DNA of 35,506 bases, taken from the IMG/VR virus record IMGVR_UViG_3300025785_000046, positions 1 through 35,506 of that record, one strand, 5' to 3'. Below the pieces are notes generated by a model. The model ran no database searches, was not told where the DNA came from, and saw only the letters and a program-made list of their open reading frames with translations. Source of the DNA: a virus. Every line of letters starts with the position of its first letter. Within the stretch, counting starts at the first letter, position 1. Positions 8,011 through 16,724 of the stretch are shown piece after piece. The position numbers and the translations under genes were made by a program.

Positions 8011-9033
8011 ATGAAGAAAGCACTTATTACAGGCATTGCTGGTCAAGACGGCAGTTATCTAGCAGAACTACTATTAGACAAAGGTTACGAAGTTCACGGT
8101 CTTATCCGTCGTAGCGCAAACTTTGACCATCCTAATATTCAAAATGTTAAGGATCAGGTTAAGTTTCACAATGGTGATTTGAGCGATTCAAACAGTATTC
8201 GCAATCTTATTGACAAGGTTCGTCCAGACGAGATTTATAATCTTGCTGCACAAAGCCATGTTAAGGTATCATTTGATATGCCAGAACTTACTGGTGACAC
8301 CAATGCATTAGGTCCGCTGCGTATTCTTGATAGTATTCGTTCATTAAAAATGACAAACGATACCAAGTTTTATCAGGCATCAACTAGTGAAATGTTTGGT
8401 ATTCAGAAGTTTAATCCACAGAAGGAAGATACGCCATTCTATCCTGGCTCACCATACAGTGCAGCCAAGTTGTATGCTTATTGGATCACGGTAAATTATC
8501 GTGAAAGTTATAAGATTTTCGGTTGTAATGGTCTTCTATTCAACCATGAGTCTCCTCGTCGTGGCGAACTTTTTGTTACTCGTAAGATTACTAAGGCATT
8601 TGCCAACATGGTATTGGGCAAGCAGAAGGTGTTGGAACTTGGTAACATGGACTCACTTCGTGATTGGGGACATGCCAAGGATTATGTTCGTGCAATGTGG
8701 ATGATGTTGCAGCATGATACGCCAGATGATTATGTTGTTGCAACTGGTATTCAGAGCAGCATTCGTGATTTCTGTAACCTTACTGCTCAGTACTTCGGTA
8801 TTACCCTTAAGTGGGAAGGCAGTGGTGTTGATGAAGTTGCCCGTAACGCTGCAACTGGTGACATTATGATTCAGGTAAATCCAGAATTTTATCGTCCTGT
8901 TGATGTTGTCAATATTCAAGGTGATGCTACTAAGGTTCGTCAGGTTCTTAACTGGTCACCAGAGTATGATTTGCAAGCATTGGTCAATGATATGTGCGAA
9001 ACTGATTTGAAACTTGCAAAGGCATATCTATGA
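8011..9033 (+). CDS. gmd: GDP-mannose 4,6-dehydratase
   Basis: 340 aa, full length for the family. It converts GDP-D-mannose to GDP-4-keto-6-deoxy-D-mannose with bound NADP. The Rossmann motif TGIAGQDG is at about 7-14, catalytic Thr and Glu lie in STSEMFG (about 124-130), and the YxxxK pair is Tyr149/Lys153 in SPYSAAKLYAYW. NHESPRRGELFVTRKI is a Gmd signature. A GAGG ribosome site precedes the ATG, and TATAAT at 7972-7977 may be the -10 box although no good -35 is present. It overlaps the next gene by four bases and opens the glycan module. Confidence 0.95.
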   Translation: MKKALITGIAGQDGSYLAELLLDKGYEVHGLIRRSANFDHPNIQNVKDQVKFHNGDLSDSNSIRNLIDKVRPDEIYNLAAQSHVKVSFDMPELTGDTNALGPLRILDSIRSLKMTNDTKFYQASTSEMFGIQKFNPQKEDTPFYPGSPYSAAKLYAYWITVNYRESYKIFGCNGLLFNHESPRRGELFVTRKITKAFANMVLGKQKVLELGNMDSLRDWGHAKDYVRAMWMMLQHDTPDDYVVATGIQSSIRDFCNLTAQYFGITLKWEGSGVDEVARNAATGDIMIQVNPEFYRPVDVVNIQGDATKVRQVLNWSPEYDLQALVNDMCETDLKLAKAYL

Positions 9034-9426: not shown

Positions 9427-10647
9427 ATGAAGAAGATTTTAGAATTAGGCGATCACTATGTAAGTGATTTTATGAAACCAGGCGCAGAAATGCGTGAAAC
9501 AAAACCATGGAGTCTTGATTTGTATCTTGACGAGACTATGGGAGCAGTTCGTCTCGATGGCGTTGCTCCACTTGACAAGATGTATGGACAGTATTGGTAT
9601 CGTAGTGGTATCAACACAAGCATGACAAAACAATTAGGCGAAATTGTAAGCGAGATTACAAGTCGTGTAAAGATTAATAATGGTGATATCTGGTTGGATA
9701 TTGCTTGTAACGATGGTACGCTACTTCGTCAAGTACCTGATAATATGATTAAGTTGGGCATTGATCCTGCCGATGATTCATATTTGGAAGAAAGCAGCAA
9801 GGTTGCCGAAGTAAAACAAGACTTCTTTAGTCGTGAAGCCTATGATAGTCTTGGCTATGGCAATGAAAAGGCAAAAGTTATTACTTGTATTGCCATGTTC
9901 TACGATCTTGCTGATCCACGTCCTTTCATCCGTGATGCTCATTCTATTCTTGCAGAAGATGGTGTATTTGTTCTTCAAATGAGTTATACTCCGCTTATGT
10001 TGAAGCAGTTGGCATTTGATAACATCTGCCATGAACATGTTTATTACTATGACCTTCGTAGCATTAAGAAGTTGTTTGAAGATGAAGGCTTTGTGTTACG
10101 TGATTGTTCATTGAATGACACGAATGGCGGTTCATTCCGTGTTACCTTCCAAAAGGCTAGCAGCGATGAAAAAACCTTTGCTACACAGCAAGTTCGTGAC
10201 GTATGCGAATTCCGTATTAACTCAACTCTTGCTTATGAAAAGCAGTCATGGGACATCACTGACGAAAACCTTTGGAAGGACTTTGGTGATAATATCTGGT
10301 CATTGAAGCAGCAGGTTCTTGATTTCTTGCATCAAGCTAAGGCAGAAGGCAAGAAGGTTTATGGATATGGTGCATCAACTAAGGGCAATACGCTCCTACA
10401 GTTGTTTGGTATCACACCAGATTTAATGATTGCTATCGCTGAACGTTCGCCTTATAAGTTTGGGTTGCAGACTGTTGGAACTAATATTCCAATCGTAAGC
10501 GAAGCAGAGATGCGAGCAGCAAACCCAGATTACTTGCTTGTTCTTCCTTGGCATTTTGTTGATGAGTTTGTCAAGCGTGAGCAAGATTTTATCGCCAATG
10601 GCGGTAAGCTAGTTGTCCCATGTCCAACCTTTCAGGTTATTGGATAA
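9427..10647 (+). CDS. Sugar C-methyltransferase (SAM-dependent, NDP-hexose type)
   Basis: 406 aa. The SAM-binding motif WLDIACNDGTLL is at about 89-100 and the catalytic block ICHEHVYYYDL at about 200-210, followed by NDTNGGSFRV. The C-terminal domain has YGYGASTKGNTLLQ. This arrangement is that of the TylC3/NovU-type NDP-hexose 3-C-methyltransferases. Those enzymes normally start with a Cys-rich zinc domain (CxxC pairs); here the protein begins close to the LELGDHYVSDF part of that domain and the Cys pairs appear absent. The likely substrate is a 4-keto-6-deoxy sugar, which fits Gmd two genes upstream. GAGGA at 9414-9418 is the ribosome site. Confidence 0.82.
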   Translation: MKKILELGDHYVSDFMKPGAEMRETKPWSLDLYLDETMGAVRLDGVAPLDKMYGQYWYRSGINTSMTKQLGEIVSEITSRVKINNGDIWLDIACNDGTLLRQVPDNMIKLGIDPADDSYLEESSKVAEVKQDFFSREAYDSLGYGNEKAKVITCIAMFYDLADPRPFIRDAHSILAEDGVFVLQMSYTPLMLKQLAFDNICHEHVYYYDLRSIKKLFEDEGFVLRDCSLNDTNGGSFRVTFQKASSDEKTFATQQVRDVCEFRINSTLAYEKQSWDITDENLWKDFGDNIWSLKQQVLDFLHQAKAEGKKVYGYGASTKGNTLLQLFGITPDLMIAIAERSPYKFGLQTVGTNIPIVSEAEMRAANPDYLLVLPWHFVDEFVKREQDFIANGGKLVVPCPTFQVIG

Positions 10648-13445: not shown

Positions 13446-14419
13446 AACCTAGAGTATTATTCGTAACACAAACCCTTGGCGACAAGGCTGCGTGTGGTAT
13501 TGGACTAATCGGAAACCTTATTGGAAATACACTTATTACTCATCAAGAGTATGAGTTTCAGGTGTTATATACCGATGGGTGGAGCGATGTAATGGCTGCT
13601 TATAACTCGTGGCAACCAAGTGCAATCATTTATAACTATGCACCAGGAACTACTCCTTGGATGGATCAACCACATCCACGCAGTGAAATTACGGTGCCAC
13701 AGGTTCGTATCATGCATGATATGTATCAAGCACTTGCGGATAGTTATGATCCACATAATAATTATGGTTGGCAATATATTCTTGCGGATGATCCAAGCGT
13801 AGTAGGAAATGATCATGTATTCATTACTAATCGTCTATTACCACCTACCACAACTCATGTTTATGAGGATGGCGATAAGCCTATCATTGGTTTCCAAGGT
13901 TTTGGACCACCGCATAAGGGTATTGCTCGTCTTGCTCGCAAGGTTCAAGAAGAGTTTGATGAAGCTATTCTACGCTTACACATTCCATTTGGATACTATG
14001 AAGACCTTATTCATGGTTATGCTGGTAGCAATGCCAATGCTCGTGTGCAAGAAGTAAAAAGTATCATTACTAAACCAGGCATTGAGTTGCAATTTAGTCA
14101 TGAACTTATGGAAACAGATGAAGTAGTTGATTGGCTAGCGCATAATACTATTAACTGCTACTTCTATGATTATCTTGATGGTGCGGGTATTGCAAGTTCG
14201 CCTGACTATGCTCTTGCTGCTCGTCGTCCTATTGCTATGACTAAGAGCCATCAGTTCCGTAATTTCTGGAATGTTGATCCAAGTATCTTTATTGAAGATA
14301 AGAGCATCAAGGAAATCATTGCACAAGGCACGGCTCCGCTTGAAAAACTATATCGTGATTATAGTGCTGAGAGCGTTCTTGCTGACTATGCTGCAATGCT
14401 ACGTAAATTAATACCGTAA
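13442..14419 (+). CDS. GT-B-like glycosyltransferase, paralogue B
   Basis: 325 aa, starting in an ATGA overlap with the epimerase gene. It is the paralogue of the protein at 11555: GFQGFGPPHKGIARLARKVQ and DGAGIASSPDYALAARRPIA align to the same blocks, and both end in a DYxxxx-L helical tail. An acidic-aromatic N-terminal half (NYAPGTTPWMDQ) would bind the acceptor and the C-terminal half the sugar nucleotide. Together the two transferases flank the epimerase gene. The 3' end overlaps the convergent minus-strand gene by 12 bases. Confidence 0.65.
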   Translation: MKPRVLFVTQTLGDKAACGIGLIGNLIGNTLITHQEYEFQVLYTDGWSDVMAAYNSWQPSAIIYNYAPGTTPWMDQPHPRSEITVPQVRIMHDMYQALADSYDPHNNYGWQYILADDPSVVGNDHVFITNRLLPPTTTHVYEDGDKPIIGFQGFGPPHKGIARLARKVQEEFDEAILRLHIPFGYYEDLIHGYAGSNANARVQEVKSIITKPGIELQFSHELMETDEVVDWLAHNTINCYFYDYLDGAGIASSPDYALAARRPIAMTKSHQFRNFWNVDPSIFIEDKSIKEIIAQGTAPLEKLYRDYSAESVLADYAAMLRKLIP

Positions 14420-15208
14420 GAAAGCTAATTCTAACCCAAGCTGCAGTAAGTTATACTCTTTAATTCTTAAATTACTGCCAGTATAACTTCTGCTGCTTGT
14501 GTTTTCTACAATAACCTTATTATAATCTAAACCTTTTATTTCACAGAAAATCTTTGCTTGTTGGCTTAAGGTATATTTGTTTTCATAAACACAATTAATT
14601 GCTTTATGTCGAATTTGATTATTTAAAACTAAATCAATAACGGATGGTACATCTTCTAAGTTAAAGAAGTCATGCTTGCGATCTTCGGTAATTATTACTT
14701 TATCATCATTTAGCAACCGTTGGAAAAATCTGCTGCTTGGTTCGCTAAAATGTGTTAAACCAAATAGTCGTATATTATAACAGTTATCTCGTTCAAGTAA
14801 GTGCATTGCTTGCTTATGTTTAAGTGAAGCATAGGGTAGTTTAGGTTCTACATATAGAACATCATCTTCGTCTGCAAAATCTATATTGCGCTCGTTATCA
14901 TATTCATATCCACTTCCAAGATGAATGAATTTCTTGTAATGTTGTGATTGATTCAATAGATTACCAAACATTGCAAAGTTCTTAACATAAAAATTTTCAT
15001 CTGGATTGTAAATCATTTCACGACCATAAAATGCAGCATTGATTACACAGTCAACTGGATGCTCAGCCATATAGCGTTCTGTAGCCGCCAAGTCTGTTAA
15101 ATCAAGTTTGCTACTGCTTGGTGCCAACACCTGATGTCCATATTCTGTATAATATTTGACAAGGTAATTTCCAATGTAACCGTTACCGCCTGTGATTAAT
15201 AATTTCAT
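14408..15208 (-). CDS. NAD(P)-dependent SDR epimerase/reductase
   Basis: 266 aa from the start MKLLITGGNGYIGNYLVKYY; an upstream in-frame start would add 17 residues before the Rossmann strand and is unlikely. The TGGNGYIG motif is intact. INAAF (about residues 72-76) and IHLGSGYEYD follow, and LPYASLKHKQAM supplies a Y-x-S-L-K type YxxxK pair. DHFF-type and late Arg contacts are consistent with RmlD- or WcaG-like reductases. In this module it is a candidate 4-ketoreductase completing a GDP-deoxysugar. It is convergent to the glycosyltransferase at 13442 and divergent from the methyltransferase at 15261. Confidence 0.75.
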   Translation of the reverse strand: MKLLITGGNGYIGNYLVKYYTEYGHQVLAPSSSKLDLTDLAATERYMAEHPVDCVINAAFYGREMIYNPDENFYVKNFAMFGNLLNQSQHYKKFIHLGSGYEYDNERNIDFADEDDVLYVEPKLPYASLKHKQAMHLLERDNCYNIRLFGLTHFSEPSSRFFQRLLNDDKVIITEDRKHDFFNLEDVPSVIDLVLNNQIRHKAINCVYENKYTLSQQAKIFCEIKGLDYNKVIVENTSSRSYTGSNLRIKEYNLLQLGLELAFLRY

Positions 15209-15243
15209 ATGATGATAATATCCTAATATATAATGTATATCAA

Positions 15244-15250
15244 TATTTAA
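15244..15250 (-). promoter_or_regulatory. Possible late promoter for the minus-strand SDR gene
   Basis: TTAAATA on the minus strand, with a predicted start near 15238, would give a leader of about 30 bases before the ATG at 15208. The element matches the TAAATA core only, so this is tentative. Confidence 0.35.
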
Positions 15251-15260
15251 CGGAAACAAA

Positions 15261-15992
15261 ATGACACCACAAGAAAGCCATCAACACAGTCTTAAAACTC
15301 TTGAATATCTTGCGCTACTTGATGATTATTTGTTGGGTATAGAAAATGTCGCAGTAATGGGTGCTGGCATTGGATTAGATGCAGTATGGTGGGCAACACT
15401 TGCTAGACCAGATGGGCGAACATATAACTTTAATGTCACTGCAGTTGATTTTGCTCCAAGTATGGAAATTAAAACTGCTGGAAAAATGCAATGGCGGTTT
15501 GAAGATTTTTCAACAATAGAATTACCATCTCAAGATTTGATTTGGTGTCACAATACGCTACATCATACAATGAACCCTATTGGTACGTTGTTTCATTGGC
15601 ACAAACTACTGCGTAAAGACGGTTTGTTAATTGTGGAGATACCTTATTCATTATCTATAAGTCAGCATATAGAACACAATACTATAAATGTTAATATGGT
15701 AAGCGGAATGTATCATGTTTATACAATGAGCAGTCTTATTATTCAATTAGCAAGTGCTGGATTTGATTGTCGTCAGGCTAACTTCCAATTAGATAAGGAG
15801 AGCGGCTGGTTACGTGCGGCAGTTTATAAGACTGATGATGAGCCAAAAATGTATAGTAGTTTATATGAATTAAAAGAAACAGGCAGACTTCCACAATGTT
15901 TAGATGCAGTGTTGGGCGGCATTGACAAATTTAACGAAGGCGATTTAGTCCTAGAATGGATTGATCGTAGCCAAAGTATTTTAGGATTGTAA
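15261..15992 (+). CDS. Class I SAM-dependent methyltransferase
   Basis: 243 aa. VAVMGAGIGLDAVWWA (about 30-45) is the SAM-binding glycine loop, AVDFAP the acidic ribose-binding strand, and DLIWCHNTLHHTMNPIGTLF the motif-IV region of ubiE/COQ5-like small-molecule methyltransferases. GLLIVEIPYSLS follows as the next strand. A GGAA ribosome site stands before the ATG. The position next to the glycan module suggests O- or N-methylation of a sugar, but the substrate cannot be read from the sequence. Confidence 0.78.
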   Translation: MTPQESHQHSLKTLEYLALLDDYLLGIENVAVMGAGIGLDAVWWATLARPDGRTYNFNVTAVDFAPSMEIKTAGKMQWRFEDFSTIELPSQDLIWCHNTLHHTMNPIGTLFHWHKLLRKDGLLIVEIPYSLSISQHIEHNTINVNMVSGMYHVYTMSSLIIQLASAGFDCRQANFQLDKESGWLRAAVYKTDDEPKMYSSLYELKETGRLPQCLDAVLGGIDKFNEGDLVLEWIDRSQSILGL

Positions 15993-16200: not shown

Positions 16201-16292
16201 AACGCATACCAGAGTTTCCTAAAAATCCCTTGTTTTTTGCTGCGCTGCAACATATATTATAATAAGTATTATTGCAATGCAAGGAGATAACA

Positions 16293-16481
16293 ATGAAAAA
16301 GATTAAACAAATTTTAAAGAACCTCTTTCCATCACATGACGAATTAATGCAACGCAGATTTGAAAAGTTCATGGAAGGCGCAAGCGACCTTCGTGAAATT
16401 GAATATCGCCACTATCTTTGGGATCGTGGATATGGTCACCCAAAAAACCATAATTTTAATGGCATGAAAGTACATTACTAA
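16293..16481 (+). CDS. Small basic protein, DUF3563-like
   Basis: 62 aa from the ATG at 16293, which is chosen because AAGGAG (16281-16286) stands six bases upstream; a TTG seven codons earlier would include the ribosome site itself. FEKFMEGASDLREIEYRHYLWDR resembles the short bacterial DUF3563 pattern (a 'x-A-x-D-L-x-x-I/L-E-x-R' helix). The role is unknown. TATAAT at 16258-16263 is a possible -10 box, and the leader is nearly the same as that of the gene at 32585. A late promoter for an RNA gene begins at its stop codon. Confidence 0.6.
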   Translation: MKKIKQILKNLFPSHDELMQRRFEKFMEGASDLREIEYRHYLWDRGYGHPKNHNFNGMKVHY

Positions 16482-16484
16482 ATA
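16479..16484 (+). promoter_or_regulatory. Late-type promoter of the small RNA gene
   Basis: The TAAATA core (16479-16484) begins at the stop codon of the preceding gene. With the T4 spacing, transcription would start at G16490, exactly the first base of a GGGA stem. Confidence 0.5.
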
Positions 16485-16489
16485 ATTAT

Positions 16490-16610
16490 GGGACTAGATG
16501 CAGAGTCTAGTATCCCTTAACTAGCTTACCCCCTGCTACTATTCGTAGTAGTAGTCCATAACTTTCAGAAGTTATGCTGTTAAAAACCTCGCTTCGTGCG
16601 GGGTTTTTTA
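16490..16610 (+). ncRNA. Probable structured small RNA with terminator
   Basis: No ORF explains this stretch. The transcript predicted from G16490 folds into consecutive hairpins. The first is GGGACTAGA (16490-16498) with TCTAG and TCCC (16506-16516), with a two-base bulge. The second is a 9-bp stem 16533-16541/16546-16554 with a UUCG tetraloop. The third is the 8-bp CATAACTT/AAGTTATG stem (16557-16564/16569-16576) with a UCAG loop. The fourth is the terminator stem 16586-16604. An alternative fold pairs GGACTA (16491-16496) with TAGTCC (16552-16557) around a 16507-16511/16520-16524 hairpin and the UUCG stem, giving a tRNA-like three-way shape without a D-arm. No known family is recognised. 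It could also be only a processed leader, but it has its own promoter and terminator signals. Confidence 0.6.
16583..16609 (+). terminator. Rho-independent terminator of the small RNA
   Basis: ACCTCGC (16586-16592) pairs with GCGGGGT (16598-16604) around TTCGT. It is flanked by an A-run and followed by six Ts (16604-16609). Confidence 0.85.
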
Positions 16611-16639
16611 TTGACAGCACATATAACTTGATATATATT
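16611..16639 (+). promoter_or_regulatory. Sigma70-type promoter of tRNA-Ala
   Basis: TTGACA (16611-16616), a 17-base spacer and TATATT (16634-16639). The predicted start near 16646 is four bases before the mature tRNA. It begins two bases after the T-run of the preceding terminator. Confidence 0.8.
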
Positions 16640-16649
16640 ATTATCTAAT

Positions 16650-16724
16650 GGGCTGCTAGTGATAATGAGAGCACGTCGCCTTTGCACGGCGAAGGTCAGG
16701 GTTTGATTCCCTGGCGGTCCACCA
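16650..16724 (+). tRNA. tRNA-Ala (anticodon TGC)
   Basis: A cloverleaf can be drawn. The acceptor GGGCTGC (16650-16656) pairs with GCGGTCC (16714-16720) using two G-U pairs. The anticodon stem TCGCC/GGCGA (16676-16680/16688-16692) carries the loop TTTGCAC, so the anticodon is TGC, reading GCA codons. The T-stem CAGGG/CCCTG (16697-16701/16709-16713) has the loop TTTGATT, and ACCA is encoded (16721-16724). The D-arm is weak: only GTG/CAC pairs and the usual GG of the D-loop is missing. T-loop position 3 is T instead of C. It is the only tRNA seen in this window and is probably transcribed together with the following gene. Confidence 0.88.

Follow-up and report, generated by a model that had tools for sequence, protein, structure and literature searches.

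What occupies the gap between a 69-aa ORF and a tRNA-Ala(UGC) gene in this viral DNA, and what might it do? The window (the whole 35.5-kb virus record analysed here) carries terL and genes for a gp32-like SSB, a UvsX-like recombinase and helicases, and its terminase is closest to that of the 286-kb PA5oct group of Pseudomonas phages (53% identity). Its source is a large (jumbo) T4-like phage known only from lake metagenomes. The original prediction placed a late-promoted, terminator-bounded structured RNA in this gap, allowed for an alternative tRNA-like fold, and named compensatory substitutions in relatives as the check that would choose between the two folds. We carried out this check, and the fold with three hairpins passed it.

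A predicted non-coding RNA between an ORF and tRNA-Ala

Positions 16490-16609 of the window (+ strand) correspond to a predicted non-coding RNA of about 120 nt, located 3' of the 69-aa ORF (16272-16481), which its feature abuts through a shared TAA, and 5' of the tRNA gene. As predicted, the interval 16490-16609 contains no plausible ORF: its longest ATG frame starts within the third hairpin, crosses the terminator, and shows non-conservative codon changes between relatives. A coding peptide at this position was rejected because it is not conserved among relatives. The minimum free energy of the RNA is -42.4 kcal/mol, compared to a mean of -26.2 for shuffled sequences (z = -4.5), and none of 200 shuffles was equally stable.

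The RNA is composed of a 5' hairpin (H1, 16490-16516), a linker with the sequence UUAACUAGCUUACCCC (16517-16532), a 9-bp hairpin with a UUCG loop (H2, 16533-16554), an 8-bp hairpin with a UCAG loop (H3, 16557-16576), and an intrinsic terminator (AAAAACCTCGC...GCGGGGTTTTTT, followed by U6; 16582-16609), all on the + strand. The terminator was missed by a simple terminator scan, but is plain in the sequence. Beyond it lies a sigma-70-type promoter, TTGACA-N17-TATATT (16611-16639, +), that forms a boundary outside the RNA and serves tRNA-Ala(UGC) (16650-16724, +), the neighbor in every relative whose gap sequence was examined. The same promoter occurs in relatives with and without the small RNA. 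The independence of the unit from the tRNA that follows it is supported, as originally predicted.

Distribution among related phages

Relatives were gathered by a protein search with a neighboring 238-aa gene, which yielded 80 loci. The RNA was present in 17 distinct sequences, all of them from the window's own clade of related jumbo T4-like phages, and was mostly located immediately upstream of tRNA-Ala(UGC). When a covariance model was applied to 20 related records, no record had more than one strong copy and 16 of the 20 had none. Among close relatives with the same neighbors but no RNA, two (L014 and L015) keep the terminator and two others (L016 and L022) lack both RNA and terminator. Since some relatives keep the neighboring genes without it, the RNA is an accessory and dispensable gene, and these natural relatives provide material for comparison.

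Searches beyond the clade returned no further members. Rfam contained no family at or above its gathering threshold for this RNA, and in annotated phages the match was to the terminator only. An initial pattern scan, mis-specified for the C run of the window-type sequence, recovered only the type found in L017 and L018 plus chance matches; of 17 loci with pattern matches in bacterial genomes, 11 were scored (one representing several Microcystis matches), and none exceeded 13.3 bits. None of the sources searched had catalogued this family of phage-encoded small structured RNAs.

Compensatory changes in the three-hairpin fold

The 3' domain of the RNA had a covariation score of 0.214, compared to 0.108 for shuffled alignments, a value reached by 0 of 500 shuffles. 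It exceeded all 500 shuffles in percent paired and in doubly changed pairs as well, and also exceeded all slid controls. H2 was paired in 100% of cells across 16 distinct sequences and has five doubly compensated pairs, with helix sequences that are fully different in L017 and L018. H3 and the terminator likewise covary, the terminator having two pairs changed on both sides together with consistent one-sided changes. Compensatory substitutions for one fold, as expected of a conserved structured RNA, are thus present, and 16490-16609 is very probably a real conserved RNA, as judged from these alignments. The discrete, three-hairpin, terminator-bounded unit of the original prediction is upheld.

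Other pairings behaved differently. A UUAAC/GUUAA helix that closes a three-way junction was either invariant or broken, and neither it nor the inner AGC/GCU pairs covaried. The version of H1 found in the window is represented by six near-identical sequences with two G-U replacements and two broken pairs, a pattern that argues weakly for H1 within this type.

Exchangeable 5' domains and a nearly invariant linker

Three unrelated 5' domains are joined to one common 3' scaffold. Type a, found in the window, has the form GGGA...UCCC; in its place, type b has AUAGG...CCUAU around inner stems that vary, and type c (L017, L018, and L031) has a longer, unrelated hairpin domain. L031 is a recombinant in which a type-c 5' domain is fused to a window-type 3' domain. 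The type-c domain contains a strongly conserved stretch, CACUCC..UGA.GAGUG.GU..AACUAACGGAAU, in which AACUAAC resembles the linker. A hammerhead-like appearance of the same domain (CTGACGAG...) was rejected because it is broken in L018.

The linker is the most conserved stretch across subtypes. Its consensus, UAACUARCUUA(A)CCCC, is nearly invariant (variants are AACUAGCUU, AACUAACUU, and AACUAGAUU), and L018 has almost the same linker as the window although H2 and H3 have been wholly rewritten. Retention of a linker while both flanking hairpins change is the pattern expected of a recognition element, and the invariant columns, which are mostly unpaired in the predicted folds, supply the exposed, conserved seed that would characterize a base-pairing small RNA.

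A late-promoter-type motif and the predicted start site

TAAATA, the T4-type late promoter box, occupies 16479-16484 (+), and its TAA doubles as the stop codon of the upstream ORF. The T4 late box, TATAAATA, spans -13 to -6 (PMC1524935). With T4 spacing, the TAAATA of the window begins at -11, and the predicted +1 falls at 16490, on the leading G of the GGGA that forms the base of H1; this is the position originally proposed. The window's form of the box, CTAAATA, is the form reported for phage Aeh1 (PMC1524935). TAAATA was present in 16 of the 17 sequences that bear the small RNA, the other (L005) having TAAAAA, and was absent from two of three relatives (L014, L015, and L016) that have the same ORF and no small RNA.

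We examined the motif genome-wide in G001 (also L252), a related 338-kb contig that carries a homolog of the gp55-type late sigma gene. Here TAAATA occurs 99 times between genes and 94 times in coding sequence, with non-coding DNA making up about 5% of the contig. On the gene strand of intergenic regions, it was observed 43 times versus 21.7 in shuffled sequence (about 2-fold), while its reverse complement was depleted (4 versus 14.3), and TATAAATA was enriched about 4-fold (10 versus 2.4). The original assignment of TAAATA as a late-type motif is borne out by this enrichment and by the gp55 homolog: going by sequence, the motif is genuinely of late-promoter type in this clade, and the locus appears to have the makings of a T4-type late unit, namely a box resembling TATAAATA at -13 to -6 in a clade with a gp55 sigma.

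We infer that the copy at 16479-16484 is used as a promoter, and consider independent late transcription of the RNA probable. Folds begun further upstream showed that H1 pairing extends past the predicted +1 in several relatives with types a and b. Because H1 can extend in this way, structure by itself neither fixes the start site nor proves the +1.

Comparison with known RNAs and the search for a target

The nearest analogs by size, location, and phage type are rnaC and rnaD of T4 (the species 1 and 2 stable RNAs), which are 139 and 119 nt long and of unknown function (PMC3014915). Like the window RNA, they are small RNAs that neighbor tRNA genes in a phage of the T4 type; unlike it, they lie within a tRNA cluster and share the strand of the tRNAs. 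The window RNA is equipped with a late box and a terminator of its own. The covariance model detected no homology to either: the best score, 5.6 bits (E = 3.6), fell on the wrong strand. In size, 5' hairpin, exposed single strand, and U-tailed terminator, the RNA also resembles the mRNA-pairing small RNAs of bacteria that end in intrinsic terminators. Compared to these it is a candidate, which may regulate host or phage RNAs as originally suggested, and no Rfam family reached its threshold.

As of a 2010 review, no small trans-acting regulatory RNA of T4 had been functionally characterized, and it was hoped that relatives would suggest candidates (PMC3014915). The present family is such a candidate: it is supported by covariation, its start and end are predicted, and its short linker, almost invariant, offers a target for mutation.

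No conserved pairing was found between the linker and phage ribosome-binding sites across five related sequences, and the linker scored worse than all 40 of 40 shuffled linkers. An antisense site, GGTAAGCTAGTT, at window position 10603 (a 12-nt match in a methyltransferase gene) was rejected because it is not kept in relatives. Among phage mRNAs, the only RNAs searched, no conserved complementary site emerged. The lack of a conserved phage ribosome-binding-site or mRNA target favors action on a host RNA, and leaves a protein decoy and a 3' UTR as the main rivals.

Proposed role and competing explanations

The computed features at this locus (a discrete RNA with a conserved fold and a constant linker, a late-promoter motif, and a 5' domain that can be exchanged) suggest the following model. 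Late RNA polymerase with a gp55-type sigma would start the RNA at 16490 and stop at the intrinsic terminator, near 16609. The 5' hairpin, exchangeable for unrelated ones, would cap and protect the start; H2 and H3 would act as two rigid hairpins and the terminator as a tail, leaving the linker exposed. The linker would then let the RNA act in trans late in infection, with base pairing to a host RNA as the most likely mode. We give this whole mechanism a probability of roughly 50%; the odds for action in trans through the linker, taken on its own, are about even. In a broader formulation, which we rate as less likely than not, lytic jumbo phages would use a late RNA of this design, with scaffold and linker constant and 5' domains interchangeable, to act late in infection on a conserved RNA or protein of the host. 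If true, it would give T4-type phages a trans-acting regulatory RNA with a defined function, the first known to us.

The RNA could instead be a structured 3' UTR of the mRNA of the upstream ORF, that is, a stability or termination module, or a 3'-UTR-derived RNA, with no start of its own. There is no terminator between the ORF and the RNA, TAAATA overlaps the ORF stop codon, the same ORF leads directly into the same terminator in L014 and L015, and H1 pairing can reach upstream of the predicted +1. However, the upstream ORF is different in L017, L018, and L031, in which the 3' domain of the RNA is retained; the late box is kept in nearly all carriers; and a 3' UTR has no need of an invariant unpaired linker. 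We regard this explanation as rather unlikely. We hold it unlikely, too, that the RNA is a decoy binding a host or phage protein through its linker and hairpins with no RNA pairing. Conservation of the linker beyond that of the helices, its avoidance of phage ribosome-binding sites, and the presence of AACUARC in the type-c 5' domain would all fit a decoy, but no known protein-binding motif was identified.

The tRNA-like alternative fares worst. The window sequence does permit 16491-16496 to pair with 16552-16557 (GGACTA/TAGTCC), as originally noted, and a tRNA gene adjoins the RNA. However, this pairing is confined to the window's subtype and occurs in 71.8% of cells versus 71.6% in shuffles, which led us to reject the tRNA-like three-way junction. 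Types b and c, in which the pairing is absent, have quite different 5' domains, and with the junction not conserved, the proposal of tRNA mimicry loses its basis. No tRNA model reported a hit on the small RNA, and we consider a tRNA mimic extremely improbable.

Genomic setting

Elsewhere in the window, genes for sugar-nucleotide epimerases and methyltransferases (8011-9033, 9427-10647, 14408-15259, and 15261-15992) form a run that looks like a phage cluster for glycan or sugar modification. The related 338-kb contig contains a tmRNA gene (L252:330-709, - strand; 108 bits to alpha_tmRNA and 100 bits to the permuted tmRNA model) and more than 20 tRNAs, hinting at an alphaproteobacterial host.

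The gap between the small RNA and tRNA-Ala looks like a hot spot for insertions. In L007 and L021 (approximately 2217-2811 in the latter) it holds a frame that by eye is HNH endonuclease-like. In L026 a GOLLD RNA (RF02032, 221.7 bits; L026:2372-2834, + strand) that contains a tRNA-like segment lies between the small RNA terminator and tRNA-Ala. GOLLD resembles the small RNA in being non-coding, beside tRNAs, and from lake phages, but it is far larger and forms a separate element downstream of the terminator.
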